Shown one piece after another: positions 22,932-62,344 of a stretch of DNA of 64,000 nt. Below the pieces are notes generated by a model. It saw only the letters and a program-made list of their open reading frames with translations. It was not told where the DNA came from and made no database searches. Source of the stretch: Raphanus sativus (Eukaryota; Streptophyta; Magnoliopsida; Brassicales; Brassicaceae). The translations under genes were made by a program, and so were the position numbers. Position 1 is the first letter of the stretch. Every line of letters starts with the position of its first letter. The DNA lies in contig NC_079514.1 of the NCBI RefSeq assembly GCF_000801105.2, forward strand, positions 22,360,293 through 22,424,292. Reading direction: 5' to 3'.

Positions 22932-22958
22932 ATTTACAATGATTAGGGGGAGAAAGGA

Positions 22959-36949: not shown

Positions 36950-37444
36950 TGTTGAGCGGAAGACCTCTTGATTCGAGATAAATCAAGACCGTATCACGTC
37001 GATACGATTGCTCGTGACCTGATTCAATCACACACAAGCACAACCAACAGAAAGATCTACAATAAAGCAAGTAAAGAAGACACACATATTGTTTACCCAG
37101 GGGTATCTCTCCGATATGGAGAACTAATCCCCTGGAGCCAGACTCAGCTAGAAAAATCCACTAGAACAAGGCACCACTCTCAAAACAGAGATGGTGAAGA
37201 ACAGAGTACAACGTCTTCTTCTCGATGACTGACAATCAGCTCTCTCTCTCTCTCTCTCTCTCTCTTCACTTATCCTAATGCTATCTCTCTGATCCTTTTA
37301 TACTGAACCAAGGATGTACAATGCTAACCAGAACCAATTAGCTAAACCGTCCTAACATAACCGGTTCAACCTAATCATTTAACTATCAATAACCAAGAGA
37401 TAACCAACCGAATTACAAGCTTAAGAATAGATCACTAACCAACA
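36950..37444 (-). repeat. Copia 3' LTR
   Basis: 495-bp LTR starting TGTTGAGCGG and ending AACCAACA. Its (CT)n tract at about 37233-37264 is longer than in the partner LTR and accounts for most of the length difference. Confidence 0.93.
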
Positions 37445-37561
37445 AACTCCTCCTTGAGCTAAGCTTAAGCTTCACCACTGCAGCTTCAACTCTTCTAGTA
37501 CCCTTGTTCTCTTCTGTGGACTTCACCTCTAGCTTACACCGTCTGGCGAGGCCTGAGGTTC

Positions 37562-40500
37562 TCAGGCTGAAACAACCTTGAGCAAACTCAACGCTGCGTT
37601 GAACTTGCTCACTGGAACCACTTTTGTCAAGATATCAGCTGGGTTCCGATTTGTATGAATCTTCACCACTTCAACCTCTCCTTCATCCATAATGTCTTGA
37701 ATAAAATCATACCTCACACGCATATGCTTCGTGCGTTCATGAAATACTGCGTTTCTCGATAAACAGATGGCGCTTTGAGAATCACACCAGATCTTAACAG
37801 AACCATGTTCAATCCCAAGCTCGGTAAGCAATCCCTTCAGCCAGATAGCCTTCTTTACCGCCTCCGTCAATGAGATATACTCCGCCTCCGTAGTTGATAA
37901 CGCCACCACTGGTTGAAGACTTGATCGCCAGCTCACTACATTACCACCTATGGTAAACACATAGCCTGACAGAGACATGCTCCTATCTCTGTCTCCTGTG
38001 TAGTCAGAATCACAGAAGCCTTGAATCTCAAAACCTTTCTCTTGAGTAAACGTGAGCTGAACATCTGCTGACCCCTTCATATACCTAAGAAGCCATTTCA
38101 CTGCTTCCCAGTGTACCTCTCCAGGTCTGCTCATAAACCTGCTGACGAGCCCCACTGCGTATGCAAGATCAGGACGCGAGCCCACCGTTGCATACATTAT
38201 ACTTCCCACCGCAAACAGGTATGGAATCGTATCAGTGTCGATACTCTCCTCCTTCTCAGTTTCTGCTGAGAGCTTGAAATGGGCTCCCATAGGTGTTAAA
38301 GCAACCTTAACATCTTCCATCCTGAAGTTTCTAACCACCTTCTTTATATACTCTGACTGAGACAGACGAAGAATCCCCTTGCTTCTGTCTCTGTATATAT
38401 CCATTCCCAGTATCCTACGAGCTGGACCTAAGTCTTTCATCTCGAATGCAGATTCCAGCTGATCCTTGAGCTTCTTGACATCCTTCATGAACTTCGCAGC
38501 AATAAGCATATCATCTACATATAGTAGAAGATACACCATGCTACCGCTTGAACCTTCTGTAGTATACACACACGCATCACTCCAGCTTCTCCTATAACCT
38601 TGGAAGTGCATGAACTCATCAAACTTCTTGTTCCACTGACGAGGAGACTGCTTGAGACCGTACATGGACTTCTTCAGTAAGAATACATGATCCGGCTTCG
38701 ACTTATCCTCGTAACCTTCAGGCTGCTCCATGTATAAGTCTTCTTCTAGATCACCGTGAAGAAAAGCTGTCTTCACGTCCATCTGCTCCAACTCTAGATC
38801 TTGATTCACCACTAATGACAGCAGTGTTTGGATTGAAACATGCTTCACTACTGGTGCGAATACTTCATGGTAGTCAATCCCCTACTTCTGCGTGAACCCT
38901 CGTGCCACAAGCCTCGACTTGTATCTCTCAGGCTCATCCTCAGTGATCCCAGGCTTTATCTTATACAGCCACTTGCAACTGATCACCTTCCTATCTTTTG
39001 GTCTCTTCACTAACACCCAAGTGCCATTCTTGAGAAGAGAACCCATCTCGTCGTCAGACGCCACACTCCACTTATGCCACTCCTTACTTGCCCTTGCCAC
39101 AGAATAATCTTTAGGTTCTTCCACATACATCAGCTCAAACATCGATAGAGAAAATGCCACCTCATAACAGTCATAATCATTGAACTTTACGGGAGGAACG
39201 ACAGTTCTGCGAGGTCTGTCTCTAGCCAGTTGATAGTTTGTCAATCATGAGCTGGCTTGCTCCACATCACCCTGCTCTGAAGCTTCTGAATCATCCTCGC
39301 CATGAGTAGCAGAAGAATCTCCTCCTTGACTTGAGCTACTACAGCCATCACTAGTCGTCAGAGGTATCTGCACAAGAGTCTTCTCAGCGTCCAACGTACC
39401 CGTCTGGTCTGGTACTCCTCCTTGAATGTTCTTCGGGATATCCTTGAACATAGTTTCTTCACAGAACTTCACATTTCGGCTAACCACACACTCTTCACCG
39501 TCTAAGAGCCACACCTTATAGCCTTTTGTCCCAGGAGGATACCCAATGAAGACTCCTTTAACTGCTCGAGGCTTGAGCTTCCCTTGATTAGTGTAGATAT
39601 ACGCCACCGAACCAAACTTTTTCATATGTTTGTAACCCGGCTTCCTTCCAAGCCAGATCTCCTCAGGAACCTTGAACCCAACCGCTGACGAGGGAGACCG
39701 ATTGATGGTATACACTGAGAACGCTGCTGCTTCTGACCAGAACTCTTCACTGAGACCAGACTCATCCAGCAGGCATCGAACCTTCTCCATGATGGTGCGA
39801 TTCATCCTCTCAGCAACGTCGTTCTGCTGGGGCGTGTATGCGCAGGTCCTATGTCTTGCAATGCCATATTTCCTGCAAAACTCATCAAACAAACGGTTGC
39901 AGAACTCTAGGCCATTATCGGTCCTGAGGCATTTAACTTTCTTATCAACCTGATTTTCTACCAGCAATTTCCATTCACTAAAACTAGCAAACGTTTCATC
40001 CTTTGTCCTAAGAAAACAGATCCAAACCTTTCTGGAGTGATCATCTATAATGGACAAGAAATATCTGTTACCAGTCTGTGAACGATGCACGATTGGAGAA
40101 CCCCAGAGATCTGCATGAACATACTCCAAAACATTAGTAGTAGTATGTTTACCAGTACTAAAGCTTACCTTTTTGGATTTTCCCATCACACAGTGCTCGC
40201 AGAAGAACTCAGCTCCCCAACATCCTTCTTGGTAAGAGTTCCAGCCTTCACAAGAACTTGTAGATTCTTGACGCTCATGTGTCCCAGTCTGCTATGCCAC
40301 ACCGGTACTTTTAACTTGTGACCTTCTACATTGCAGCTCTCTGGTACTACGGTTTCACCCTTCAGGATGTAAAGGCCATTAACCAGAGCTCCCCACAATG
40401 CGACCATGGAGTTCTTCATGAAGATAATCCTGCCATCCTCTCCACAATGCTTGAACCCAAGTCGATCTAGGGTCCCCGTAGAAATAAGGTTCCTTCTGAG

Positions 40501-41625
40501 CGCAGGAACGTATCTGACATTCTTCAACACCTTGACGGTGCCCCCACGAGTGTTGATCTTCACAGTACCGATCCCCAGAGTCTCTATTGTGGTATAGTCT
40601 CCTAGAAGAACCTTTGCTGACTTGATCTCTTCAAAGTCAGTGAACCACTCGCGATGGCAGGTCATGTGGTGTGTACACCCTGAGTCTATAACCCAGTCCT
40701 CACTCGCCTCATTGCCAACCGTCGTAAGAGCATTTGGAGCATCATCGAGTGAACTTATTGCTACAGCCGCTTCTCCATCGCTATCTTGTTCCATCCTTTT
40801 CTTCCTCGCAAAGCAGTCTGCTTTAACATGCCCCTCTTTCTTGCAGTACCAGCAAGTAACTTTCCTTCCTCGTGACTTGCTTCTGCCTTTGTTTCCTCGA
40901 GAGTCGCCATGATCGCGCCTGCTTTGTCGTCCTCTTTCAGAGGAATAGAGCACGGATGCTGTTCCCTTCTCATTCCTTCCACTATCTTGGATCTCTCTCT
41001 GTTTGGACCTTGCCGCCGATATGACTTCTTCCAACGTGAGAGAGTCCTTTCCATACTTGAGAGTATGCTTGAGTTGATCATAGATGGCCGGTAGAGAGCT
41101 CAGGAACACAATAGCTTGAATCTCATCAGTGACACTGACATTCAAGCTCCCCATCTCTGCAACAATTTTCAAGAAATCATCTACGTTTATATCGATAGAC
41201 TTTGAGCTATCACATTTAAACGTGTAGAATAAAGATTGAACAAAGATGCGATTGGGTAAAGACTTGGATAGATGCAACCTTTCGAGAGATGACCACATCG
41301 CTGCTGCGGTAGTGCAGGGCTTGATCTTGCGAAGAACTTGATTCCCGATGTTGAGGATAATCATATCTTTCGCCTTTTCATCCTTCTCGAGTTTAACTGG
41401 ATCAAGAATCGTCTTTGTATCTGACGCACCAGTACCGTCGTCATCATCCACCGCCTTTCCCTCTGGTTTTGTCACCGGAACTTCGATCTCGAAGTTATCA
41501 CTAAGCACGACTTCCTTCAAGCCCGATACACCAAAGTGAGCCATCATCTGAATCGTCCACAGCGAGAAATCACCGGTTCCGTCGAACAGTTCCACCTCAG
41601 CGCGTATCGTCTTCGTCGTCGTCAT
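37562..41625 (-). pseudogene. Copia gag-pol polyprotein, three lesions
   Basis: It starts MTTTKTIRAEVELFDGTGDF at 41625. The gag (UBN2-type) spans residues 1-230, with zinc knuckle 'CWYCKKEGHVKADC' near 275. The protease motif 'DWVIDSGCTHHMT' is near 330, and a gag-pre-integrase 'VWHSRLGHMSVKNLQ' comes before a one-base frameshift at about 40215. The integrase (to 39245) has its catalytic residues in 'HADLWGS', 'LRTDNGLEF' and 'NDVAERMNRTI'. A TGA at 39245-39247 and a TAG at 38882-38884 follow. The RT has 'MDVKTAFLHGDLEEDLYMEQ' and catalytic 'YVDDMLIA'. RNase H contains 'GFCDSDYTGD', 'STTEAEYI' and 'WCDSQSAICL'. The frame ends at 37562. General resemblance is to Tnt1-type copia polyproteins. 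All other codons are open. Confidence 0.93.
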
Positions 41626-41652
41626 CGTGAGTCCACGAATCTAGACAACCTG

Positions 41653-41664
41653 GCTCTGATACCA
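41653..41664 (-). promoter_or_regulatory. Copia primer binding site (tRNA-iMet)
   Basis: TGGTATCAGAGC on minus, two bases inside the 5' LTR, complements the 3' end of plant initiator-Met tRNA and primes minus-strand DNA synthesis. Confidence 0.9.
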
Positions 41665-41666
41665 CT

Positions 41667-42157
41667 TGTTGAGCGGAAGACCTCTTGATTCGAGATGAAT
41701 CAAGACCGTATCACGTCGATACGATTGCTCGTGACCTGATTCAATCACACACAAGCACAAGCAACAGAAAGATCTACAAGAAAGCAAGTAAAGAAGACAC
41801 ACAGATTGTTTACCCAGGGGTATCTCTCCGATATGGAGAACTAATCCCCTGGAGCCAGACTCAGCTAGCAAAATCCACTAGAACAAGGCACCACTCTCAA
41901 AACAGAGATGGTGAAGAACAGAGTACAACGTCTTCTTCTCGATGACTGACAATCAGCTCTCTATCTCTCTCTCTCTCTTCACTTATCCTAATGCTATCTC
42001 TCTTATCCTTTTATACTGAACCAAGGATGTACAATGCTAACCAGAACCAATTAGCTAAACCGTCCTAACATAACCGGTTCAACCTAATCATCTAATTATC
42101 AATAACCAAGATATAACCAACCGAATTACAAGCTTAAGAATAGATCACTAACCAACA
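41667..42157 (-). repeat. Copia 5' LTR
   Basis: 491-bp LTR with the same ends as its partner. It holds the element promoter on minus. The CT tract is shorter and interrupted by an a (about 41960-41980). Confidence 0.93.
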
Positions 42158-42328
42158 ATTCCCATTGGTCGATTTAATCATCTGACGTGGAGGCCTTCTC
42201 TGAGCAGGGTATTCTGCTTTTACTACTTGTTGAATTTTTATTTTTTTTTGCGTCTGAAAGACACTTTATTTAGTAAAACCATATAGTATAAGATCAAGAA
42301 CGCTTCACAGCTTGCTTGTTGAAACATC

Positions 42329-44205: not shown

Positions 44206-44210
44206 ATGTT

Positions 44211-45848
44211 TGTAGCATCCCTATCCCCCGGGGATCGACCGGGGTTATCGGTAGGGAGCTATAGACATGCGTATGCTCTTATAGGCAACCCGCCGTGTCA
44301 GTTACTGGTCCCATGAGTCGACGATCGCATTGCTTTCTTTGAAATTCCGATCCACCCGTATCCATACACTTCTACTTACAGTCCTGCGCACAGGTAAAAG
44401 GAAAGGGAGGGTCTGAGTATTGGGTTACTCAGTGAAGTGACTCTAGACCAGCCTGCCCGCAAGACACTCTACACTACTCTATGCGGGAACCAGGACTGAC
44501 TAGCCACTACAGTCATCAAGGCAACATAAAGCATTCCATAACACATCATTTCTAGCCACCTAGCGAGCAGTCAATACATTAAACTCAGACACTGCTACAA
44601 ATCAATCAATAATAGATAAGACCGACTCGACAAACACAACCGACTCAACTTCAAGAAAAGGACCTATGATCATTTACGGATGTCCCTACGCGTTCCGGTC
44701 TATCCTGGGTGGCGCCTCTTTCGAGCATCCGTCCCGCCCAGCTTCCTAGAGGCTACCCGGATTGCAGCACGTTGGCCCTCTGGCTCTGTTTGCCCCCCGG
44801 CCATTCATAGCCTTACACAGCCCTTCTCGGCTTGACTCGATCCTATGGCGCCACTACACTTGCTTATTTATATCCCGCCCTCGCGCGGTTCCTTTCACAT
44901 CACCACACATCGCACCCTAGACTCTAGACGCCCACCCGTTCTCGGTGGTCCAAGCAGGACTACAAACAAGATCATTGACACTTCTTCCACATTCTCATTC
45001 TCATTCACATTCACTTACTCATACTTACACTTCCTCTTTCACTTACTCCATCACTTACACATAGACTCATAGTCATACTCATACTCAAGACGCCACCCGT
45101 TATCGGTGTCCCACACAAGTCACTTAGCACAAGATTAATATGAACAACCAATCGACAAGATGCTAAGAGAAATCTCTATCAACACATGGGACCAAACAAC
45201 ACATAAGGAATCATCATATTTTATCCACATCAACACAAGACAGTCCATTAATGTCCCTTTTAAACAGTATGAGAGTTCTTATGCAACATGGTTCATGCAT
45301 CTAACAGCCTAGATTCATCATGAACTAACACCCTAACTTTCACACAAGAGCTAATCAACCCTAGATCCAACAAGATTAATATAAAGGACATGAGAGAAAC
45401 TGGGTTTGGATCACCTCATCTTAACCTAGATCTGGACACAAGAGCGAGAGAAGATGAGATCTGAACCACCCGACTGATCAGCTACACCACCACCACGCTA
45501 CCTCAACACACGGCGATCACCACCAATCCGCCGCCGACAAGGAGAGAGAGGGAGAGATCGGACGCCGAGGAGAGAGAGAAGAAGAAGAAGAAGAGAGAGA
45601 CGCGCTGGAGAGAGGAGAGAAGAGAGAAGAGACGGCGGCGCAGGAGAGAAGACTTGACGGCTAGGGTTTCCAGTTCTCCGGGAATCTCTGCAGAGCTCCG
45701 CTTCAGTTTTGTGAATAGGACAAAAGGAGGTGGCTGCAGTCCTTTTTATAAGGATGGGGAGGAGAGACCTAGGTTTTCTAGTCAATCGGGCCGTAGGGAA
45801 GCCCGATCCCATTAGAAAAAATATTGGGTCCGGGATAGGGATGTTACA
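44211..45848 (-). repeat. 3' LTR of the gene-capturing element
   Basis: 1638 bp, bounded on plus by TGTAGCATCCCTATCCC and GGGATAGGGATGTTACA, a 17-bp inverted repeat with one mismatch. It contains a 'cattctcattctcattcaca' type pyrimidine repeat near 44985-45070 and a purine-rich gagagaagaag tract near 45540-45650. Confidence 0.92.
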
Positions 45849-46257
45849 AACTCCCCCACTTAATGGAATTCGGCCCCGAATTCAGCTTGTGTAACTCCCA
45901 ATTCTTAACATCCCTTACCCAATATTTTTTTTCCAACGGTTTCTGCAATCCAAGATATCCTTGGTACTAACTCAATGCGGCTTTATACTACTCCCATGTC
46001 GCATCAGGCGGTACTACTTGCTTCGAGGTTTCATAGGTCTTCTTTGCTTTGTCTTTTGTTCTCCCCCACTTCGATCAGGCATACCCATTTCCTAACACCC
46101 GTCATTTCGTCCCCTATTTCTGTGTGTCAAGACTCCCGTGCCTAACATTCCGACTTCGTGTGACACCCACTCGCCCTTTGTCCGCCAGCGGTTTCACAAA
46201 GTTATCCGAGGCGCTTATTACTATCCTTACTCGACTCGATTGGACCGCCAAGGACAA
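45849..46257 (-). other. 3' untranslated part with relic of a gypsy pol end
   Basis: Beside the polypurine tract is 'cttaatggaattcggccccg' followed by 'aattc' (plus strand). On minus this reads like the last codons of chromovirus pol (Glu-Phe-Xaa-Xaa-Glu-Phe) before the tract. A similar block is at 56548-56575 in the other non-autonomous element. The rest shows no gene. Confidence 0.5.
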
Positions 46258-47730
46258 TGGTTGAAAACTGCTTGTAACCCGGAAACAAGATATTCTTCTT
46301 CTCCATCCACCGATTCAAAATGGGCAGTGGTTGTGCACGGTCTTCTGCTTTTGCACTGTAGAAGTCAAGCAGTGGAGTGTCTTTGTCCTGCCATCTCACA
46401 AACTCTCTTTTCCAGGTAGACAAAAATTCCCTTTGGAAGCACAACCAGTGGCTTAGCCTAAGGATACTTTGCAAGGAAGCTCTGCATGAAACTGATGATC
46501 ATGAAGGTTCTTCCGGAACCCGGAGCACGAGCCACGATACAACCCCCTGGGGTGGAGCACAGCCCACAACCCAAATGAGCTACACGATGAGGCTTCATCT
46601 TGCTAGCATGCGTCGGATGAGCAGGTAGCCCACCTATCATCCGCCCTTCTGCAGATAACTTAATCTCAAAATCTGGTCCCCAAACTTTTTAATCCGAGAT
46701 TCGGAAGCATATGATCTCGTGCTCCTTTTCGCTTTACTGAAGTTCACCTCAACAATATCTAAGATGCTTTTGTCAATAACTCCGCGGACACGGCAACATA
46801 ACCCATGTCGTCCTTTAGTATGAAGGGGTGCGCGCAGTCTTCCACTTCATCGGTCTTTGATTCATTGCGTGAGGTCTCTGCATCCTTGGAACACACTATT
46901 GACATGGCCATTTCATTTCCAGATATTACCAAGATCCTCATCTGCTGCTTCAGACTCATTACCACTTGCATCATCCTCAACGCCCCCATAGACACCCTTA
47001 TCGTTGACCACACCATTTCCAATGGCATGAACTTTTTCTCTCCTTGTTTGTCCCACGCAGACATCTCTGCCAATGACCATACCGTTTTACATAGCAAGGA
47101 GGTTGCCTCTGCTACTTTGTCCCTCCACCAACCAGTAATGGACAAGCCATCTCCCGTCCCCTCCCCAAAAGCGGACTGCGGCGTCACAGGCACCACGTCG
47201 CCTTGACCCTTCTGATGCTGCACAAGACTTGACTGAAACGGACACTTAGGCTTCTCGACAGCATCTTCATCATCATCAGCAGAATCAAGAATAACAATCT
47301 CAGTGGAAGGGACCACAAAGAGAGCCTTCTTCGAACCATCATCATCACCCCATCGCCATCCAAGTCAATCACACAATCCAGAGCCAGCTGACTCTCCAAA
47401 CTCATAAGCTCTCCTTGACCGTCCTCTGTTGCTGCTGCTGCCGCTACTGCTCCTGCTCCCAACACAGCATGGGCAAGCGATGGATACAACCAGATGCAAC
47501 GCTTCACCCGCTCCATCCTCAGGTTAGCCACCTCTTCCAATTCCTTAGTAACGTTCCCGAACTTACCACCGTCTAGAGCCTCAGCATGTTGCTGACGGCA
47601 AGGGTTGAGAAAAGTTGGTGTCTTTAGATGGGTTCCTGTGCCGCTTTGCCTCGGAGGAGCCGAGAGAGAGTCCATCCTCCTCTTGCTTCCTGATGCGGTG
47701 CCCTTTAAGGGGAGGTTGGGGAATCTCCAT
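46258..47730 (-). pseudogene. Captured DRD1/CHR35-like SNF2 chromatin remodeller fragment
   Basis: Minus-strand pieces in changing frames follow one protein. They are: 'MEIPQPPLKGHRIRKQEEDG' (47730); 'QQHAEALDGGKFGNVTKELE'; 'VVPSTEIVILDSADDDED' and 'FQSSLVQHQKGQGDVVPVTP'; '[14 protein letters not shown]' and 'HPFILKDDMGYV'; 'VIDKSILDIVEVNFSKAKRS' and '[14 protein letters not shown]'; '[18 protein letters not shown]'; Walker A-like '[20 protein letters not shown]'; '[20 protein letters not shown]' and '[19 protein letters not shown]' (ends about 46258). This matches, as far as I recall, DRD1 of the DRD1-CLSY family, which supports Pol V transcription in RNA-directed DNA methylation. Only the N-terminal part to just past the first ATPase motif is present. 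Frame changes occur near 47615, 47350, 46930, 46795, 46690 and 46430, and a stop near 46457. No intron-like gaps are obvious, which hints at capture from RNA. A CLSY paralogue is the main alternative. Confidence 0.75.
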
Positions 47731-48085
47731 GAAGGAGACAGAAATCACTAACTGAGATGATACCACGCCATGGTTACAATTCCTGCTTTCGGACACGTCC
47801 TTTCTTCCCGTTTTCGATGATTCCAAACTAAACCCAAACTCCCAAAAATGAGTTATACTCATCCTACTCCTCCATTCCTTATAACCCAAACTTTAACTTC
47901 TACTCGATTATCCTAAAACCAACGAATAAATTCATTAATGAAATGGAGTAGGATTACAATAAATCGGAAAGCTCAAGGCATCTGCACAAACACAGGCTGC
48001 CCAAAGAAAGAAAGAAACACCAAAGCCAGCAACAAATAAATAAATCTGCCAAACAAAACTCGCATCCTACTTCCGAAAAAGGGTC
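47731..48085 (-). other. Spacer between gag-like ORF and captured fragment
   Basis: About 350 bp with no supported gene. It may contain the 5' untranslated part of the captured host transcript, since the frame upstream of 47730 has no further family match. The junction with element sequence is not visible to me. Confidence 0.3.
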
Positions 48086-49186
48086 CTACTCACTCAGCCA
48101 ACCACCACGCGGAGAGTCGCCGATAGTTTCGGTTCCAGGGCCCGCCGTGCCGCCGCACGCCACCCTAGCCTTCGGGTTTCCGTTCTTCTTCCGGGGATGC
48201 TGATGCTCGACGGCGAACCCCCTCCCTTTAATCTTATCCTCTGCAGCTACTGCTTGACTTGCCATCCTCCTCACAAGAGCAAACTCCAGAGGCTCTAGAG
48301 CTGCCCCGAGTTTGTCGTGAATCTCTCTGCGTAGTCCGGCCTTGAACAACCTACGCCACTCCTCTGCAGGCTTGGGCTGACAATGCCTGGCGGTATCCAA
48401 AAACTCCCACAAGTAGTCCCTCACTTTGTTTGACTTCTGCGCAGCCTGAACCCGTACGTCGCAGTCGCAATCGTCCTGATCTGAAGAAGGCTTCTGTGGG
48501 CGCCCCCGTTTCTTCTTGGGTGCTTCCCCACCAGATGCCTTGGGGTTCCCATCGCCCTCCTTCGGTTTCCCGTGCCCAGGTTTCCTGGCTTCAATCTCCC
48601 CTTCTGCTTCTTTTGCTAATCCAGCCATACACTGCACCAAGGCGAACTCCAGAGGCTCTAAGACTCCCTTCACCTTGTCCTGAATCTTCTTACGCAGTCC
48701 TCGCTTGTACCATTTGCACCACATTTCTGTGCTTTTCGGCTTACACAGCTTGGCTTGGTTGATGAAGTCCACAGTGTAGCCAGCAACAGATCGATCCTCC
48801 TGCTTATTCCGGAATAGTGTCTTGCACCGGCATTTACCTGCGATGGATCTCGGAGGCTCTCGGGCTACCCCTGATGCCTTGCTTGGCCGGCCCCGCTTCC
48901 TCGGAAGGTCCTCATCGAGAGCGAGTTGGAACATAGCACAACCCTGGAGTACACGCTCCTCCATAACCATCTTCAGAAAGTGTGGCATTGTCACTATGCG
49001 TCCCACAGTCTGCTCGAAAGGGTACCCGAATGGAAACTCTCTGAACTGTTCCTCTGGATCTGGAAACGTAGGCAGCACCCAGTTTCCCTCTGCGTCACGG
49101 TGCCGCTTCCGGGCGTGCTCCCGTGTGCCCACCGGCTCGTAGTGCAAACCCGGCATCCTCCACTCGTAGTGATCAAGCGGAAACAT
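48086..49186 (-). CDS. Gag-like protein with two AT-hook/gag modules
   Basis: An open frame with no stop, 366 codons from MFPLDHYEWRMPGLHYEP (49186) to 'SPRGGWLSE'. A longer reading from 49258 is possible, but 'ttttactgcag|gATG' directly before 49186 looks like a 3' splice site, so a leader intron and this start are likelier. After an N-terminal part there are two repeats. Each has an AT-hook ('RKRGRPSK', 'KKRGRPQK'), a Cys pair ('CRCKTLF', 'CDCDVR') and a ~60-residue helical segment ('DFINQAKLCKPKSTEMWCKW', 'EFLDTARHCQPKPAEEWRRL', both ending 'LEPLEFALV..MA'). The helical parts resemble the C-terminal half of retrotransposon gag. Zinc knuckle and enzymes are absent. It is likely the structural protein of the non-autonomous element. 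AT-hooks in such a protein are unusual. Confidence 0.7.
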   Translation of the reverse strand: MFPLDHYEWRMPGLHYEPVGTREHARKRHRDAEGNWVLPTFPDPEEQFREFPFGYPFEQTVGRIVTMPHFLKMVMEERVLQGCAMFQLALDEDLPRKRGRPSKASGVAREPPRSIAGKCRCKTLFRNKQEDRSVAGYTVDFINQAKLCKPKSTEMWCKWYKRGLRKKIQDKVKGVLEPLEFALVQCMAGLAKEAEGEIEARKPGHGKPKEGDGNPKASGGEAPKKKRGRPQKPSSDQDDCDCDVRVQAAQKSNKVRDYLWEFLDTARHCQPKPAEEWRRLFKAGLRREIHDKLGAALEPLEFALVRRMASQAVAAEDKIKGRGFAVEHQHPRKKNGNPKARVACGGTAGPGTETIGDSPRGGWLSE

Positions 49187-49371
49187 CCTGCAGTAAAAGA
49201 AAACGATCAGAACCATAATAGAAGCATAGATATAGTGGGTGGTGTTTGAAAACATCACACAACTTCCTCAAACATCAAAACTTTCGAAAACTCTTTTCTT
49301 TTTAAAACAAGGTTTTGAAAAACTTTGGAAATGCCGACCCCTTAGGATAGCACTAAGGGATCTTAACCCCC

Positions 49372-49383
49372 GCTCTGATACCA
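49372..49383 (-). promoter_or_regulatory. Primer binding site (tRNA-iMet)
   Basis: TGGTATCAGAGC on minus, two bases from the 5' LTR end, followed by GGGGGTTAAG. It complements initiator-Met tRNA. Confidence 0.88.
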
Positions 49384-49385
49384 GT

Positions 49386-51027
49386 TGTAGCATCCGTATC
49401 CCCCGGGGATCGACCGGGGTTATCGGTAGGGAGCTATAGACACGCGTATGACCTTATAGGCAATCCGCCGTGTCAGTTACTGGTCCCATGAGTCGACGAT
49501 CGCATTGCTTTCTTTGAAATTCCGATCCACCCGTATCCATACACTTCTACTTACAGTCCTGCGCACAGGGAAAAGGAAAGGGAGGGTCTGAGTATTGGGT
49601 TACTCAGTGAAGTGACTCTAGACCAGCCTGCCCGCAAGACACTCTACACTACTCTATGCGGGAACCAGGACTGACTAGCCACTACAGTCATCAAGGCAAC
49701 ATAAAGCATTCCATAACACATCATTTCTAGCCACCTAGCGAGCAGTCAATACATTAAACTCAGACACTGCTACAAATCAATCAATAATAGATAAGACCGA
49801 CTCGACAAACACAACCGACTCAACTTCAAGAAAAGGACCTATGACCGTTTACGGATGTCCCTACGCGTTCCGGTCTATCCTGGGCGGCGCCTCTTTCGAG
49901 CATCCGTCCCGCCCAGCTTCCTAGAGGCTACCCGGATTGCAGCACGTTGGCCCTCTGGCTCTGTCTGCCCCCCCGGCCATTCATAGCCTTACACAGCCCT
50001 TCTCGGCTTGACTCGATCCTATGGCGCCACTACACTTGCTTATTTATATCCCGTCCTCGCGCGGTTCCTTTCACATCACCACACATCGCACCCTAGACTC
50101 TAGACGCCCACCCGTTCTCGGTGGTCCAAGCAGGACTACAAACAAGATCATTGACACTTCTTCCACATTCTCATTCTCATTCACATTCACTTACTCATAC
50201 TTACACTTCCTCTTTCACTTACTCCATCACTTACACATAGACTCATAGTCATACTCATACTCAAGACGCCACCCGTTATCGGTGTCCCACACAAGTCACT
50301 TAGCACAAGATTAATATGAACAACCAATCGACAAGATGCTAAGAGAAATCTCTATCAACACATGGGACCAAACAACACATAAGGAATCATCATATTTTAT
50401 CCACATCAACACAAGGCAGTCCATTAATGTCCCTTTTAAACAGTATGAGAGTTCTTATGCAACATGGTTCATGCATCTAACAGCCTAGATTCATCATGAA
50501 CTAACACCCTAACTTTCACACAAGAGCTAATCAACCCTAGATCCAACAAGATTAATATAAAGGACTTGAGAGAAACTGGGTTCAGATCACCTCACCTTAA
50601 CCTAGATCTGGACACAAGAGCGAGAGAAGATGAGATCTGAACCACCCGACTGATCAGCTACACCACCACCACGCTACCTCAACACACGGCGATCACCACC
50701 CCCAACCACCACCAATCCGCCGCCGACAAGGAGAGAGAGGGAGAGATCGGACGCCGAGGAGAGAGAGAAGAAGAAGAAGAGAGAGACGCGCGGGAGAGAG
50801 GAGAGAAGAGATGGCGGCGCAGGAGAGAAGACTTGACGGATAGGGTTTCCAGTTCTCCGGGAATCTCTGCAGAGCTCCGCTTCAGTTTTGTGAATAGGAC
50901 AAAAGGAGGTGGCTGTAGTCCTTTTTATAAGGATGGGGAGGAGAGACCTAGGTTTTCTAGTCAATCGGGCCGTAGGGAAGCCCGATCCCATTAGAAAAAA
51001 TATTGGGTCCGGAATAGGGATGTTACA
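49386..51027 (-). repeat. 5' LTR of the gene-capturing element
   Basis: 1642 bp, nearly identical to 44211-45848. It differs by scattered substitutions (for example ccgtatccc against ccctatccc at the edge) and an extra 'cccccaaccaccacc'-type insertion near 50700. Transcription would start here on minus. Confidence 0.92.
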
Positions 51028-51383
51028 ATGTTGGCGTTGGAGAAAATGCAAGATAATCACTGAATGCCGAACAAACTCTACAGTAACGGTCTTAACTCAT
51101 GAATCAGTTTTTTTCCATGCAAAGTATGAGTAAAGCTTTTAAATGTCTAGTGTTAGCTTATTTGTGTGTACTTTTTTTTTCTTTATTTGTGTATACACTT
51201 GGTTTGATTAACTCTGCAATCATGAAAGAATATGTTCGGTGCTCTTTGGATTTTTTTTTCCTTTTTCTTAACAAAGTTGTGCTTTTTCGATTGTTGTAGA
51301 AAGATGCGCAGAGAGTTTAAGTGTTCCAATCACCAATGCGCAGAACTACTTTAATAATGATATCTGTTTCAAAAAGAATCTAT

Positions 51384-53370: not shown

Positions 53371-55351
53371 TGTAACACCCCCAAACCGTCCTAGGCATCG
53401 GTCAAACCACCGACCAACAATCAAACAAGAACATGACCGACGGAGCGACCAACACTAAGGGTTGGAGGTGAAAGGTCAACCGGCCAGCCAATAATAAAAC
53501 AAGAACATGACTGACCGTCCAACCCAACACCATGGTCCGGAAGCGCTACATGACGAGCTAGGGACGATCCAGTCAGTGCCACAGAATTTACTCTGCAACT
53601 TAGACCAGTTCATCCACTAACACATCCCGCTAACTCAAGGCATAAGGCTTTGCAACCCGTACCCGAAGTTAACGTTTTCCGTTAGATCGAGGCCTAAGGC
53701 TTTTCAACCCGTACCAAGAGCTAACGTTGTGTTGGTTCGGACTAAACCAATATCATATTGGACCCGTTCAATTTTAAATAAATTCTAAGTCTTTTAAGAA
53801 TATTTGCAATATTTTTGGGATCCCAAACCCGAATAAAACGCAACGGAAAAGTTATGTTTAAGAATCAAACCGTAGCACAATGCACTGCAAATCTACTCCG
53901 GCGGCCTACGTATCCAATCTTCTACAACCTAAACTCCTGCAAAAAGGACAACGAGAGTTGGGTGAGCAACCTAATGTTACCCAGTGAGCTGGCTACCTCT
54001 AACACAAATCCTAATGTAGCTAGCCCAGACAACCCAAAAACAACAAGCAATCTAGCCTAAGCGCAATAATAAAGCTTAAGGTCAATCCTTAAACCGCACC
54101 GACTAAAGTATGCTCGACCTTAATCTAAAACTAACAGCTTGGCCAAACAGCCAACTAATCGAACGGATCCCTAGCAATTCTAACAATCAAGACTCGATCT
54201 AAGTTAACACCGTATCTCGGTGCTAACACTAACTCAAGGGTTCCACAACCCTTAACACAACAATAAATAAAACTAACTCGATGCAATACTCTAACTAGAC
54301 ACCACTCAACAAAATAAAATACTCTAACCCGGGAAATGGTGATTTCGTGTTCATCCCCAATATCGGCAACATCCTAACTTCCTACCACAAAGGCCAGAAG
54401 AGAGGAACTTTCAACTGACCGCGGCCCACAGTCATTCGGGTCACCGCGCGACAGCCCACAGTCCTTCGGGTCACTGTCACATTACACCGTCGTGTAATCA
54501 CTCAGCCCTAGGCCATGATCCCGTCTCTCTGAGTCTTCCCGATCCAGCGAATAAGGGGTTTCCTTAAACCCGCTAAATACGAGGCAGCGAGGAAACACTA
54601 ATCAACCCTAGACAAGCCTAGTATGGGCGGGTTACGCACATACTGTCGGCATACACAAAATCCTATCCTAGACTCTCGACTCTATGACACTAACATCTAG
54701 TACCAGTAATCCGGCCTATATGGCGTAGGATCCCAAGTACTAACATCTAAGAATAAAAACAGCAATAACATAACTAATCAAACCAACCGGTTAGTCACTC
54801 CCTTACCAAGAGCTGACTAACCTCAAACAACAATCAATAACTCAATCAAACCGTTACCCAGATAGTTAAGCCTCATGCTATGAAACTATCTTTAAAGATA
54901 ACGGGAACCTGCACACAACCAAATAACCAAGCAAGAATAGAAAACATGATGCACCCTAGTCCTAGTCCTAGTCAGGTTATTAACTCAGTCTTAATTCCTT
55001 TCAACTCAGCTTAGCCCATGCTAAACTGAGTCCGGTTTATAAAGCAAATAACCCTAAGGACTCTATCATGCAACAGCGTGAGCATTCTACTCTATATGCA
55101 ACAACTATCCTAAGTTCCAAGTGGAACTCAAACAAACCAACTCACAGTGTTCTTGCAGCGTGCCGATCGGAGAGAGCCTAGCCAAAATCCGTCGTCAACG
55201 TCTGGAATGGACTGGTATGGACAGATAAGCACTCAGACAGAACCTCCTCTAGCTGCTGGATAATACTGCAGAACTTCTCGGCAGAGTTTCGGACCTCGAA
55301 AATACTGTAGAAGTCTCAAAACAACTCGAAATCTCTTACTTTCTTTTTCTA

Positions 55352-55390
<39 letters not shown>

Positions 55391-56538
55391 GCTTTATTTT
55401 GAAGTGATTTTGGGTCTGACTGATGAATGAAATGAGCAGGGGGGGGGGGGGGTTGGGTTTATATAGGAATGGCAAAACCATTGAAATGGTGCCATCCTTT
55501 CGCCTGTGTGTCGTCGCGCATGCTTCCGGTTGCATGTGTTGCGACACACGGGCGTCCAAATGTCACTCAGCATGACTACTTGACATACCAGATGACAGCA
55601 CCACGTCCACATGTCTCTCAGACTGGCTGGAGTGCTTGCATCGCGACACACGAGTTCCCTGGGTGTCGATTCGCATGTGCAGACTGCAGATATGGAGGCA
55701 CCTCGTGCTACGACATGTCAAGCAGTAAGGGAGAGGCTTTTGCACGCCTACACCTCCTCCTTGGGTTGAAACTCAGCTGCTCAGTGGATAAACATCACGT
55801 CCTGACCTCTCAGATCAATCCACCTCGAGCTTCCCGGTCGATTTGCGCGATTTCGGCCTTCCCGGCTTATTTTCGACCCGTGATCAATCCCGAATATTTT
55901 TCCGCTCCCGTTCTGATGCTCTGAATATTACTAATAGACTCCATAAGGATTCTGAACTTGGAGAAAAATAATTCCCGAGTCTCCGGCTTCCTCGAGAAAT
56001 AGACAATACCGAAATCAGGGTTTTCGGTCGATTTCGGGTTTTCCCGTCGTGCTTGCTTCCCGTCATGCTTGCTTCCCGTCCTGCTTAATTCCCGTCCTGC
56101 TTCCAACTTATAATGTCTCTGAAATTATATTCCGCTCATACGAAGTTTCGGGGAAAACTTAGCGGCTAAGTCACGTCATGCTTCGAAAACGTCGTGCTTC
56201 TATCCCGTCGTGCTTCCAAAAAGGTTATGCTTCCAAAACGTCCGTCTGATAAATCTAAGATTCTTCTGTAAAGAGTAGAGCAGCTTACTTCGACTCATGC
56301 TTCACTTACGATCCATTCTTGACCTTCTTGTACTTCGAAACTTCCCGATCGATCCGTATCGTCCGCGATTCGACCACAAGGTTGATGCTCGACCAATCTT
56401 CTATTTTCTCCGATCCATGTCAAGTTTTAAATGATCAAAACTCAACATTCTTCATGACTCTTTGATTCCCAAAAGCTTGGCTCCAGATCTTGACTTTTAC
56501 TCCCTCGACCATTTTATCCCTTCGGGAGGGTTATTACA
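53371..56538 (-). repeat. 3' LTR of the nested element
   Basis: 3168 bp. It includes a (TC)n tract at 55354-55389 and a 14-base G run at 55439-55452, both longer than in the partner LTR, and a 'cgtcgtgcttcc' repeat block at about 56040-56245. Confidence 0.93.
56040..56245. repeat. Degenerate 'cccgtcgtgcttgcttc' tandem repeat in the LTR
   Basis: About eight variants of 'ccgtc[g/a/c]tgcttgcttc' or 'cgtcgtgcttccaaaa' in two clusters, 56043-56103 and 56173-56245. The same block is in the other LTR at about 61848-62045. It may bear on transcription of the element. Confidence 0.65.
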
Positions 56539-57893
56539 TTCTCCCCCCCTTAATAGAATTCGTCCTCGAATTCTTAAGTGTGCAACTGCTCAGCTCCACG
56601 ACTCTTGCTCTGCCTTTGATAACAATCTCTCCTTGGATCACTTCGTCTCACGGTCTTGATCACTTGATTTGCTTCTTTATCGATTCGCCCTTGAAATCTC
56701 TCTTTCGGTTCCTTTGATCTCCATAAACACTTTGGATTTTGAACTTGCTTCACCTTGATGACGACTACTCCATAATTCTTCCTTACTTTACTCTAACTTG
56801 ATTTCTAGATGTACTTCTTCATCGGTTCGTCTTTGATGTCCTCCATACGAACTTCTGATTCTTAACTTCACTACTTTGATGTATTCCGGAACAATCCCCC
56901 TTTGTCTTGAATTCTTCTTGACTCCTCATGGTTTACTCACTCTCAACTCATCTTCATATCGGTTTACGCTCTTCACAGATGTTACAAGGTCTCCATAATC
57001 GTCTTCATATCTCTCCACTTGAATGATCACTGAATTGTCTGCTCGCTCTTATTCTGCCGTAACGCGTATTTTCCATGATACTATCTTGTCCTTTCGATAG
57101 ATATCATCCTTGCTTCTGATTACTCAAACCCATTTTCTGAAACTCTCCTTTTTCCCAAATACTGATGAAGCCTTTTCTCAACGAAGTCTTGTTCTTGTTC
57201 AGTCCATACCACTGTCTTGTCCGTCTGAACTCTTTCTCTTTGGGTTTTTGGCTTTAACTCTTCTCACTTTAAGGTTTCCATCCTTAAAGTTCCGATCAAC
57301 AAACTCACAAGCTGCAATCTCAAAAGAACACTTCACAGCAAGTTAGTTAACAACTAACCTAACAATCTAATCGCAACACTAACCAGCAACCTAACGATTC
57401 TATCCACACAACCTAGAAATTCTATCTAGGCAATCTAGCAAATCTAACCAATCTATCCAAGCAAACTAGCAAATCTAGGTTCCACTATCTACTCTAAAAG
57501 GCGGTCTAAATCCTAAGGTTCTAATGATACTAACGATTTGTGTGATATCTAAACCATTGTAAATGTTTTGTTAGGCCATATGTCCAAGCGCTCACTATTT
57601 TTCATCTTGTAAACCACACGATTCAAATATGCAACAATCAAACAAGAACATGCATACTTGAATAATATGGTCACGTAATTACTCAATAGATAACGCAAAA
57701 TGATAACCATTTTCACTATAAAACATATCATCCCATCAAATACATACATACTTGACAGAAAAACATCTTTTATCGCTACCGATGGTATATCATACAACAA
57801 AAGGGACATCGGCTGTCACAACACACTACAAAAGTCTGTACACCGCTATATCACAACAAAATGTCAGTACCCTACTTACCAGGCCCTAGGCGT
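56539..57893 (-). other. 3' non-coding part of the nested element
   Basis: It starts with the polypurine tract and 'cttaatagaattcgtcctcg' plus 'aattc', the pol-end-like block shared with 45853-45885. The rest is T- and C-rich on plus with no supported gene. Short tandem words 'aatctaacc/aatctagc' occur at 57360-57480. Confidence 0.45.
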
Positions 57894-58961
57894 CTAAGAA
57901 CGCCATATATAGAGTAACATGTCGCAGTTGGGACAGTAAGTCCACTCCGACGATTCCCCGGCTGGTTGTGCACTCGGTAGGTAGGGTATCCCGGATAGCT
58001 CGTAGTACCTCCGGCAATCAGCAGTCAAGTGTCCGGCAGCTCCGCAAGCAAGGCAAGTCGGGTACAGATACGATCCACTAAGATAGGTAGTAGTATGATA
58101 TGGGTATCCGTGAGGATCCACATATCTATCTCTGGCACCAAAAAGAACATCTCTACCTTGTCCGTGATGATAGGACTGAGGAGCGTAAGGATCTCCAAGA
58201 GAAGTAGATCCTCCAAAAACATAGGATGTGTCGATAGCTGGAAGGCGAGATGGCCCTCCGGTCTCATAGATAGTCTGATAAGGTGGTAACTCAGTCGCGG
58301 CTGTCTCCATAGGTACACAGGTGGACGGTCCTCCAGTCTCATAGGTAGTGTGAAAATGTGGTGGCTGAACCGTGGCTGTCTCCATAGGTGGAATGCTGGG
58401 AGGCCCTCCGGTCTCGGATGTGATAGGAAAATAAGTAATCACAATATCCATCATGTCGAGGTAAGTCTGCACTAACTCGTTGTTTCTATCGTCATCTCTA
58501 CCCTCAATAGCCATTGTGGGCAGACAGAAGTACCTCCATAATGCGTCCTCCATCTGGAGAAAAGCAGGGTGGTCGGGAAATCCTTGTAATATGGGTGGAG
58601 TGGGAAACTCGAACGCCTCCGAAGGTGGGGACCCAGATGGCATCCCTACTGGCGTCGATGGTGAAGGACCATGATCCTCAGCTGGATCATATCTAGGTGT
58701 CTCTCCGTTAGTGCCGGTAGACGAAATGGTGATAGGACTTGGTGGCCCTACTCCAGAAACCTCTGTGACAACATCCTCAGGCTCGGTGTCATCATCAGAA
58801 AGAACAATAACAGGTGCCAGATCCACCATAGCATCAGGATCAGTATCATCATCGGATATAACAATGGGTGTCGGATCTGTATCAGGCAAAATAGGATCAC
58901 ACTCCTGTGATGGAAAAAGATCGGCCAGTATCGGGCTATGCACAACGTCGGAACCCTCCAT
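57894..58961 (-). CDS. Zinc-knuckle gag-like protein with ETGGP repeats
   Basis: Open frame of 355 codons from MEGSDVVHSPILADLFPSQE (58961) to 'DMLLYIWRS'. The frame is open upstream to 59075, but 'gattccgcag|gtt' lies between and may be a 3' splice site. The first third is acidic with repeated '(V/I)(V/I)(I/L)SDDDT(D/E)P' units, possibly SUMO-interacting by look. The middle has three ~29-residue repeats built on 'ETGGP(P)S..PMETA'. The end has a CCHC knuckle 'CLACGAAGHLTADC' and a Cys pair 'CPNCDM'. It lacks a clear gag capsid domain and any enzyme. As the only ORF of the element it probably serves RNA packaging or binding. No stop or shift breaks it. Confidence 0.72.
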   Translation of the reverse strand: MEGSDVVHSPILADLFPSQECDPILPDTDPTPIVISDDDTDPDAMVDLAPVIVLSDDDTEPEDVVTEVSGVGPPSPITISSTGTNGETPRYDPAEDHGPSPSTPVGMPSGSPPSEAFEFPTPPILQGFPDHPAFLQMEDALWRYFCLPTMAIEGRDDDRNNELVQTYLDMMDIVITYFPITSETGGPPSIPPMETATVQPPHFHTTYETGGPSTCVPMETAATELPPYQTIYETGGPSRLPAIDTSYVFGGSTSLGDPYAPQSYHHGQGRDVLFGARDRYVDPHGYPYHTTTYLSGSYLYPTCLACGAAGHLTADCRRYYELSGIPYLPSAQPAGESSEWTYCPNCDMLLYIWRS

Positions 58962-59185
58962 AACTCCAAATATCCACCCTACCACACCAGTACAGCAACC
59001 TGCGGAATCAAAGTTACAAAATATATAGGGGTTAGACGAAATTCTAAAACTATAATCTATCTTACCCCTCCCCAACGATTGGATACGACCGGATTCCTAG
59101 AGAGTGCATTGGCGACTCCTTTTTGACTCGAAAATTATCGAAAACATTTTTAAAAACACGGGAACCAGTGAGCATTATCGTAACC

Positions 59186-59199
59186 ATGCTCTGATACCA
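59186..59199 (-). promoter_or_regulatory. Primer binding site (tRNA-iMet) of the nested element
   Basis: TGGTATCAGAGCAT on minus, four bases from the 5' LTR edge; complements initiator-Met tRNA. Confidence 0.88.
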
Positions 59200-59203
59200 C
59201 CTC

Positions 59204-62200
59204 TGTAACACCCCCGAACCGTCCTAGGCATCGGTCAAACCACGGGCCAACATTCAAACAAGAACATGACCGACAGAGCGACCAACACTAAGGGTTGGAG
59301 GTGAAAGGTCAACCGGCCAGCCAACAATCAAACAAGAACATGACTGACCGTCCAACCCAACACCATGGTCCGGAAGCGCTACATGACGAGCTAGGGACGA
59401 TCCAGTCAGTGCCACATAATTTACTCCGCAACTTAGACCAGTTCATCCACTAGCACATCCCGCTAACTCAAGGCATAAGGCTTTGCAACCCGTACCCGAA
59501 GTTAACATTTTCCGTTAGATCGAGGCCTAAAGCTTTTCAACCCGTACCAAGAGCTAACGTTGTGTTGGTTCGGACTAAACCAATATCATATTGGACCCGT
59601 TCAATTTTAAATAAATTCTAAGTCTTTTAAGAATATTTGCAATATTTTAGGGATACCAAACCCGAATAAAACGCAACGGAAAAGTAATGTTTAAGAATCA
59701 AACCGTAGCACAATGCACTGCAAATATACTCCGGCGGCCTACGTATCCAATCTTCTACAACCTGAACTCCTGCAAAAAGGACAACGAGAGTTGGGTGAGC
59801 AACCTAATGTTACCCAGTGAGCTGGCTACCTCTAACCCAAATCCTAATGTAGCTAGCCCAGACAACCCAAAAACAACAAGCAATCTAGCCTAAGCGCAAT
59901 AATAAAGCTTAAGGCTAATCCTTAAACCGCACCGACTAAGGTATGCTCGACCTTAATCTAAAACTAACAGCTTGGCCAAACGGCCAACTAATCGAACGGA
60001 TCCCTAGCAGTTCTAACAATCAAGACTCGATCTAAGTTAACACCGTATCTCGGTGCTAACACTAACTCAAGGGTTCCACAACCCTTAACACAACAATAAA
60101 TAAAACTAACTCGACGCAATACTCTAACTAGACACCACTCAACAAAATAAAATACTCTAACCCGGGAAATGGTGATTTCGTGTTCATCCCCAATATCAGC
60201 AACATCCTAACTTCCTACCACAAAGGCCAGAAGAGAGGAACTTTCAACCGACCTCGGCCCACAGTCATTCGGGTCACCGCGCGACAGCCCACAGTCCTTC
60301 GGGTCACTGTCACATTACACCGTCGTGTAATCACTCAGCCCTAGGCCATGATCCCGTCTCTCTGAGTCTTCCCGATCCAGCGAATAAGGGGTTTCCTTAA
60401 ACCCGCTAAATACGAGGCAGCGAGAAACACTAATCAACCCTAGACAAGCCTAGTATGGGCGGGTTACGCAGATACTGTCGGCATACACAAAATCCTATCC
60501 TAGACTCTCGACTCTACGACACTAACATCTAGTACCAGTAATCCGGCCTATATGGCGTAGGATCCCAAGTACTAACATCTAAGAATAAAAACATCAATAA
60601 CATAACTAATCAAACCAACCGGTTAGTCACTCCCTTACCAAGAGCTGACTAACCTCAAACAACAATCAATAACTGAATCAAACCGTTACCCAGATAGTTA
60701 AGCCTCCTGCTATGAAACTATCTTTAAAGATAACGGGAACCTGCACTCAACCAAATAACCAAGCAAGAATAGAAAACATGATGCACCCTAGTCCTAGTCC
60801 TAGTCAGGTTATTAACTCAGTCTTAATTCCTTTCATCTCAGCTTAGCCCATGCTAAACTGAGTCCGGTTTATAAAGCAAATAACCCTAAGGACTCTATCA
60901 TGCAACAGCGTGAGCATTCTACTCTATATGCAACAACTATCCTAAGTTCCAAGTGGAACTCAAACAAACCAACTCACAGTGTTCTTGCAGCGTGCCGATC
61001 GGAGAGAGCCTAGCCAAAACCCGTCGTCAACGTCTGGAATGGACTGGTATGGACAGATAAGCACTCAGACAGAACCTCCTCTAGCTGCTGGATAATACTG
61101 CAGAACTTCTCGGCAGAGTTTCAGACCTAGAAAATGCTGTAGAAGTCTCAAAACAACTCGAAATCTCTTGCTTTCTTTTTCTACTTTCTCTCTCTCTCTC
61201 TAGCTTTATTTTGAAGTGATTTTGGGTCTGAATGATGAATGAAATGAGCAGGGGGGGTTGGGTTTATATAGGAATGGCAAAACCATTGAAATGGTGCCAC
61301 CCTATCGCCTGTGTGTCGTCGCGCATGCTTCCGGTTGCATGCGTTGCGACACACGGGCGTCCAAATGTCACTCAGCATGACTACTTGACATACCAGATGA
61401 CAGCACCACGTCCAAATGTCTCTCAGACTGGCTGGAGTGCTTGCATCGCGACACACGAGTCCCCTGGGTGTCGATTCGCATGTGCAGACTGCAGATATGG
61501 AGGCACCTCGTGCTACGACATGTCAAGCAGCAAGGGAGAGGCTCTTGCACGCCTACACCTCCTCCTTGGGTTGACACTCAGCTGCTCAGTGGATAAACAT
61601 CACGTCATGACCTCTCAGATCCATCCATCTCGAGCTTCCCGGTCGATTTGCGCGATTTCGGCCTTCCCGGCTTATTTTCGACCCGTGATCAATCCCGAAT
61701 ATTTTTCCGCTCCCGTTCTGATGCTCTGAATATTACTAATAGACTCCATAAGGATTCTGAACTTGGAGAAAAAATATTTCCCGAGTCTCCGGCTTCCTCG
61801 AAAAATAGACAATACCGAAATCAGGGTTTTCGGTCGATTTCGGGTTTTCCCGTCGTGCTTGCTTCCTGTCATGCTTGCTTCCCGTCCTGCTTAATTCCCG
61901 TCCTGCTTCCGACTTATAATGTCTCTGAAATTATATTCCGCTCATACGAAGTTTCGGGGAAAACTTAGCGGCTAAGTCACGTCATGCTTCGAAAACGTCG
62001 TGCTTCTATCCCGTCGTGCTTCCAAAAAGGTTATGCTTCCAAAACGTCCGTCTGATCAATCTAAGATTCTTCTGTAAAGAGTAGAGCAGCTTACTTCGAC
62101 TCATGCTTCACTTACGATCCATTCTTGACCTTCTCGTACTTCGAAACTTCCCGATCGATCCGTATCGTCCGTGATTCGACCACAAGGTTGATGCTCGACC

Positions 62201-62344
62201 AATCTTCTATTTTCTCTGATCCATGTCAAGTTTTAAATGATCAAAACTCAACATTCTTCATGACTCTTTGATTCCCAAAAGCTTGGCTCCAGATCTTGAC
62301 TTTTACTCCCTCGACCATTTTATCCCTTCGGGAGGGTTATTACA
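59204..62344 (-). repeat. 5' LTR of the nested element
   Basis: 3141 bp, highly similar to 53371-56538. The TC tract (61186-61200) and G run (61251-61257) are short here. It would drive transcription on minus into the zinc-knuckle ORF. Confidence 0.93.

Follow-up and report, generated by a model that had tools for sequence, protein, structure and literature searches.

DRD1 is a plant gene needed for the silencing of transposable elements. Why does an LTR retrotransposon of radish carry a piece of it? We addressed this question within a 64,000-nucleotide stretch of the radish genome (C4:22360293-22424292; hereafter the window). A preliminary description of this stretch, made from its letters, had proposed that a complete LTR element with 5-bp duplications captured part of DRD1, and had named both an effect on the donor gene and passive cargo as possible outcomes. 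To our knowledge, the idea that transposons turn fragments of silencing genes on their hosts rests on few cases.

The element proved to be complete. It spans 44211-51027 of the window and has paired LTRs bounded by TG..CA, a primer binding site, a polypurine tract and the same target-site duplication on both sides (Table 1), which are the features of an LTR retrotransposon. The duplications, the primer binding site and the polypurine-like tract place it on the minus strand. We take the primer binding site to be of the initiator-Met type. Aligned over 1628 bases, the two LTRs show 22 differences, and the longest inverted match within the element is 17 bp, at the LTR ends. The 3537-bp interior lacks pol and contains a gag-like ORF and the DRD1 piece alone.

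Table 1. Positions of features in the window, and of one related locus on another contig.
Feature	Position	Strand	Remarks
Target-site duplication ATGTT, low-coordinate side	44206..44210		Same 5 bp at both ends
3' LTR, 1638 bp	44211..45848	-	Direct repeat with 49386-51027
Putative polypurine tract AAGTGGGGGAG, adjoining the 3' LTR	45851..45861	-	Read from sequence; role as polypurine tract putative
Filler between DRD1 copy and old element sequence	46085..46229	-	Unaligned in fragment-less L037, L039 and L040
Spliced DRD1 fragment, 25 nt 5' of ATG and CDS to ~nt 1513	46228..47755	-	ATG at 47730
163-codon ATG-to-stop frame containing the peptide-7 stretch	47184..47675	-	ORF list; translation putative
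Stretch matching DRD1 peptide 7 (DMS3/RDM1-binding), open here	47451..47582	-	tblastn coordinates; PDB 6oit chain G
Filler upstream of DRD1 copy	47756..47914	-	Unaligned in four fragment-less relatives
Gag-like ORF, 366 codons, two related units	48086..49186	-	Names of relatives; Pfam in family members
Primer binding site TGGTATCAGAGC (its start)	49372..49383	-	Two bases after 5' LTR
5' LTR, 1642 bp	49386..51027	-	Direct repeat with 44211-45848
Target-site duplication ATGTT, high-coordinate side	51028..51032		Identical to low side
L018	C1116:5500-15000		Fragment copy under P0005

A protein search with the gag-like ORF returned 34 matches, several of them titled 'Retrotransposon gag domain-containing'. 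The matches that carry an organism name come from Brassica, Raphanus and Eruca, and three of the 34 (P0121, P0128 and P0130) carry none. Pfam recognized Retrotrans_gag in 10 of the 15 family members scanned (E up to 10, best 5.2e-05), and the window's own gag-like ORF gave no match to this domain at E up to 10. With gag and no pol, the family is classed as non-autonomous and gag-only. It resembles the TR-GAG elements, described in PMC9784723 as non-autonomous, with two LTRs around a single gag ORF. It differs from them in the host-gene fragment downstream of gag and in a gag that is weakly recognized by Pfam and consists of two related units. In most copies showing both units, these are ~63-66% alike at the DNA level. 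L039 and L040, two relatives that lack the DRD1 piece, have similar LTRs and primer-binding-site regions, short interiors (~1.6 and 2.5 kb) and a single-unit gag-like ORF or remnant; L039 seemingly has one gag unit.

The protein and nucleotide matches of the captured sequence both point to DRD1, in agreement with the preliminary description, and the four host-protein peptides quoted there are all present, distributed over three frames. The stitched frames match Brassicaceae DRD1 best (A. halleri, E 4e-143) and not an unrelated or transposon-encoded helicase. A longer stitched query placed Brassiceae DRD1/CHR35 on top, with CHR35 of other plants after the Brassicaceae DRD1 proteins. At the nucleotide level, the piece is 84% identical to the native DRD1 of the same genome over 1551 aligned columns. 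In Pfam, the unstitched, broken frames of the DRD1 piece had no match, and the stitched read-through matched SNF2 just under the cut-off. The peptide-7 stretch matches PDB 6oit chain G (E 8.3e-14), and this peptide is reported to be absent from other SWI2/SNF2 proteins (PMC6718625). We identify the piece as DRD1/CHR35 and not as CLSY or another SNF2 protein.

The piece starts 25 bases before the ATG and extends into the last exon, thereby covering the first ~55% of DRD1/CHR35. The limits first given for it, 46258-47730, lie inside the copy but are too narrow, as the copy runs from about 46228 to 47755. In the window copy itself, the match to the native gene can be traced to about nt 1488-1501 of the 2766-nt CDS; its 3' border at CDS nt 1513 is taken from other copies and is placed within ~25 bases. 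At 46531-46593, ~60 bases of the window copy depart from DRD1 and match six places outside native DRD1 and the fragment loci described below (50-62 bases, 83-91%). This is perhaps a small patch from another repeat.

In a protein tree, the window piece grouped with P0005 (UFBoot 100), beside P0155 and Hirschfeldia (88) and inside Brassiceae. Among 234 sites that are invariant in five Brassiceae hosts, the piece and P0005 have the same derived residue at 4 and depart differently from the hosts at 2 more, compared with ~3 coinciding sites expected by chance. The piece shares 0-2 derived residues with any single host at these sites. P0005 is a 401-aa Raphanus 'SNF2 domain-containing protein' (SNF2/helicase), which we considered as a separate host DRD1 and rejected, because it apparently places on C1116, the site of a fragment copy (L018). 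It seems to be a gene model that runs across the DRD1 sequence carried by that copy, a case in which annotation can take captured cargo for a gene.

The intact native DRD1 lies within C5:31666500-31674500, has 921 codons in five coding exons and is 97.5% identical to P0155. Its introns follow CDS nt 28, 603, 843 and 996. All four are gone from the piece, and from this we infer that its source was a spliced DRD1 mRNA. Intron-free host sequence between LTRs is also the arrangement of Bs1-like mRNA transduction.

We searched the radish genome (433 Mb, 6413 contigs) with the piece and obtained 45 DNA matches. Removing native DRD1 (four pieces) and six short matches (50-62 bases), and merging the remaining pieces, left 28 loci: the window and 27 others (L010-L036). 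The fragment is thus present at no fewer than 28 loci, at all of which it lies in the sense orientation of the LTRs. With a long native query, the fragment begins at -24 or -25 in 11 of the 28 loci, and in 12 its last base is precisely CDS nt 1513. No locus reaches past native -25 on one side or CDS nt 1513 on the other; we read the shorter spans in other copies as deletion or decay. The copies used for indel and identity comparisons were extracted with a query reaching as far as native 1488, and the 3' border comes from the longer query.

The fragment is flanked by common element sequences across loci. In gag-bearing copies with complete stretches, the order is LTR, primer-binding-site region, gag, gap1, piece, int3 and LTR. 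Paired LTRs with a matching, exact 5-bp duplication are present at 14 of the 28 loci, the others being truncated or partial or having none that we found. Intron loss alone would also suit a processed DRD1 pseudogene, into or beside which the elements had inserted. However, equal borders and flanking element sequence recur at many loci, including those 14 with their own duplications, and this already contradicts such an origin for the family as a whole. We give it next to no weight, although a lone DRD1 pseudogene may have served as the donor before capture.

Relatives without the fragment show the insertion site. In all four (L037, L038, L039 and L040), the part that aligns with gap1 ends at nt 168-172; the part that aligns with int3 begins at 158-172 in three of them (L037, L039 and L040), L038 not being clear. 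Fillers of ~159 and ~145 bases flank the DRD1 sequence, and neither has a counterpart in the retrieved native DRD1 locus. The common borders are consistent with a capture that probably happened once. The two fillers are a point against a single-capture account, which leaves them unexplained.

Gag is missing at seven fragment loci (L012, L021, L022, L024, L028, L032 and L033), six of which share a 5' end at native 94. Conversely, a search with gag gave 28 matches and 25 gag loci, after one 59-base match was dropped and two partial matches were assumed to be part of a split element, L015. The piece is present at 21 of these 25. At two gag loci it lies at a distance, ~16 kb off and between paired LTRs at C7:22706964 and ~7 kb off at C7:24588349; we assume that both are elements split by insertions. 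It is missing at C7:24792132 (77% gag identity) and at C4:44906768, C2:11695486 and C1997 (69-70%), the absence at the last two being taken from the lack of a match in the genome DNA search. A search with the LTRs, in which 40 of 205 candidates were scored, yielded eight LTR pairs that lack a fragment match and five that have one. Since elements with the same LTRs occur without it, the piece is common yet dispensable for mobility.

We dated the insertions from their LTRs. Eight loci gave no pair, and the pairs of L011, L016 and L023 are partial. An apparent pair at L020 was a local duplication and not LTRs, and was dropped. Across the 19 pairs, the K2P distance is 0-0.028, with 14 under 0.01, and the LTRs of L013 show zero differences in 1700 bases. 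Paired LTRs that differ by 0-2.8% indicate that the family moved recently. Substitution rates are 0.7-1.5e-8 per site and year, which gives insertion ages of 0 to about 2 million years. Ks between the copies and native DRD1 is 0.175-0.40 (21 copies), or several million years at the same rates, so the capture is much older than the dated insertions.

The gag sequences form two lineages, A and B, with a distance of 0.267 between them and of 0.089 and 0.077 within them. This split is not seen in the piece (0.152 between, 0.147 and 0.150 within), is hardly visible in gap1 (0.166 versus 0.153 and 0.141) and is slight in the LTRs (0.213 versus 0.175 and 0.183). In the tree of the piece, lineage-B elements are scattered among those of lineage A; for example, L016 joins L013 and L014 with full support. 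Recombination between elements is the simplest reading of a cargo found in both gag lineages. The piece has diverged about as much as its noncoding neighbor gap1 (A-A 0.147 versus 0.153).

Does the cargo encode a protein? Measured against the native gene, all 28 copies carry two or more indels whose length is not divisible by three. Two of the frameshifts recur, at CDS 932 in 15 and at CDS 1151 in 16 of the 23 copies covering the site. Frame-breaking indels in each copy, many of them shared, imply that a DRD1-half protein was not kept, and the sharing of frameshifts implies that the family continued to transpose once the frame had been lost. Of 187 sites that are constant among the hosts, the window copy departs from the Brassiceae majority at 32, and of 297 variable sites at 51; for the seven host proteins examined, the count at invariant sites is 0-5.

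Substitution patterns were compared with the expectation from the copies' own mutation spectrum, using 20 long copies. Private changes in the piece fit neutrality (111 synonymous, 251 nonsynonymous and 12 stop versus 97, 265 and 12.5 expected; p 0.25). They are evenly distributed among codon positions, but those of gag are as well (0.18, 0.17 and 0.18), and so private changes cannot separate the two. Changes shared by two or more copies number 108 synonymous, 207 nonsynonymous and 6 stop in the piece, versus 83, 227 and 11 expected. Their omega of 0.70 (p 0.0036) departs from neutrality and is a weak sign for a kept protein. In the piece, shared changes per site at codon positions 1-3 are 0.28, 0.27 and 0.35 (p 0.055), and in gag they are 0.28, 0.27 and 0.62 (p 2e-17). 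Gag was kept and the DRD1 frame was not; the inherited substitutions reflect weak constraint at most in the piece and strong constraint in gag.

Uncorrected Ka/Ks between copies is 0.56 for the piece (210 pairs) and 0.24 for gag (136 pairs). Values below 1 had first suggested a kept protein, an idea that we rejected, as the shared changes, which do separate the piece from gag, give no more than a weak signal in the piece. Two local patterns were noticed afterwards: codons 351-400 have 28 nonsynonymous changes versus 55 expected, and codons 1-150 have no stop versus 6.3 expected. L018, L032 and L033 are nearer to the native gene (0.91-0.92) than most copies. Given the shared omega of 0.70 and the Ka/Ks of 0.56, the piece may have been coding at first, or the native gene may have been sampled more than once.

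A shorter product might still interfere with the host. A truncated DRD1 with peptide 7 and no working motor would occupy DMS3-RDM1 and block DRD1; peptide 7 is reported to be sufficient and required for the interaction with DMS3 and RDM1, with one per complex (PMC6718625). In 16 of the 28 copies the core of peptide 7 lies in an open frame with an identity of 70% or higher; 11 of these 16 have an in-frame start codon before it, and L026 has 273 codons from an ATG. The window copy keeps 36 of 39 aligned peptide-7 residues as in the native protein and has Arg in place of the Walker-A Lys. However, nonsynonymous change at peptide 7 is not reduced (observed/expected 1.09), its omega of 0.64 is at the 10th percentile of 50-codon windows, and a search by codon windows across copies found no selection on it. 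Several copies have frameshifts inside or beside the peptide, and the product would need translation downstream of gag. Such a decoy is unlikely, and we would count it a long shot.

We favor passive retro-captured cargo, acquired in one capture of spliced mRNA and with potential for siRNA crosstalk, as the best reading, with a probability of roughly two in three. A gag-only LTR family of radish would have acquired a stretch of spliced DRD1 mRNA, in what was probably a single event and most likely through template switching during reverse transcription in a virus-like particle. The cargo-bearing element would then have amplified over a long period while the cargo lost its coding ability stepwise, becoming a passive passenger as far as protein is concerned. 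Co-packaged RNAs could have recombined and so spread the cargo over two gag lineages, and small RNAs against the family could act on native DRD1 through shared 21-24-nt stretches. Passive cargo, offered as one alternative in the preliminary description, emerges as the better-supported choice from the uniform sense orientation, the broken frames and the absence of the piece from several elements with the same LTRs.

The potential for crosstalk can be described from shared k-mers. Of the 1513 native bases, perfect 21-mers shared with some copy account for 1032 and 24-mers for 947; allowing up to 2 mismatches raises the figure for 21-mers to 1463. At least one perfect 21-mer is shared with native DRD1 by 27 of the 28 copies. 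As a control, the native CDS after nt 1488 shares 0 of its 1258 21-mers. Because perfect stretches of 21-24 nt are shared, family small RNAs could reach DRD1, and small-RNA crosstalk with this gene is possible.

Crosstalk could go further and benefit the element. The 21-24-nt siRNAs of the family might lower native DRD1 through cleavage or methylation of its first 1.5 kb, as with miR820 on OsDRM2, and so weaken Pol V recruitment and help the family. The shared 21-mers, the recent activity of the family and several precedents speak for this: miR820 (PMC3459959), B. napus Helitrons (PMC11986588) and maize donor genes (PMC13317346). Against it, the fragment is in sense at every locus with no inverted match over 17 bp, and it diverges about like noncoding gap1. 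The strongest 200-nt fold (47128-47327) is ordinary (z -1.5; 15 of 200 shuffles are as stable), and LTR pairs without the fragment outnumber those with it among the scored candidates. The B. napus study also reported that expression did not differ in its homoeologue groups (PMC11986588). We found no foldback precursor of the miR820 kind; the fold statistic and the lack of longer inverted matches leave such a precursor unsupported. On balance, we consider that siRNAs of the family serve it in this way unlikely.

Much the same doubt attaches to the fuller claim that siRNAs act in trans on the first five exons of DRD1 and lower Pol V-dependent methylation, and that the cargo would hence have been kept and passed between gag lineages despite its dead frame. 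If true, a second RdDM gene, after OsDRM2, would have been turned on its own pathway, by an unrelated transposon class, and a possible counter-defence of this kind at the RNA level would be striking. With recent activity, at least 28 fragment loci, an intact native gene, fragment-less relatives and known borders, the radish family offers a decidable test case.

The same shared 21-24-mers would also suit camouflage, in which cargo from an important gene shields the element because strong silencing would harm DRD1. This was proposed in general terms in section 11 of a review (PMC13317346), but fragment-less relatives are numerous too, and we hold such shielding to be very improbable.

Searches of open-access literature listings found no earlier account of a DRD1 capture. 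By analogy, the closest precedent for the cargo-bearing radish family is the group of miR820-bearing CACTA transposons of rice. According to PMC3459959, five CACTA elements carry a precursor that resembles OsDRM2 and was possibly derived from it, and OsDRM2 is cleaved and methylated. In both cases, a multi-copy transposon carries sequence akin to a host RdDM gene and possibly taken from it (PMC3459959). The rice elements are DNA transposons with similarity extending into an intron, a foldback miRNA and targeting that was shown (PMC3459959), whereas the radish elements are LTR elements with sequence from spliced mRNA of DRD1, in sense only and with no foldback found.

Gene capture by an LTR element (Bs1), and siRNA effects on donor genes in maize, are reviewed in PMC13317346. 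Bs1 is likewise an LTR retroelement with host-gene pieces in its internal region, in that case from three other host genes (PMC13317346); the radish family has one silencing-gene piece, at 28 loci, and LTRs less than 1% apart in 14 of 19 dated copies. VANDAL elements also have cargo touching DNA methylation, and VANC is described as a protein, encoded by the transposon, that strips methylation from members of the same family (PMC13317346). In contrast, none of the 28 copies of the radish DRD1 piece preserves an intact frame, and its frame-breaking and shared indels do not agree with a protein kept by selection. For gene-capturing Helitrons in B. napus, siRNA crosstalk has been proposed (PMC11986588).

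The window contains further repeats. Direct repeats of 3.1 kb, 97.2% identical, lie at 53371-56538 and 59204-62344, and between them, at 57894-59096 on the minus strand, is a 400-codon frame with a CCHC-like motif and no Pfam match. Together, 53371-62344 is probably another LTR element with very long LTRs. A Copia-type element at 36950-42158 has LTRs at 36950-37445 and 41667-42158 (97.2%) and a frame for an RVT_2 reverse transcriptase. At 19416-24719, a LINE-type element has consecutive frames with DUF4283 and then RVT_1 and zf-RVT. A 174-codon frame at 15210-15734 matches the mitochondrial calcium uniporter (MCU, E 1.9e-49) and represents a gene or a remnant.
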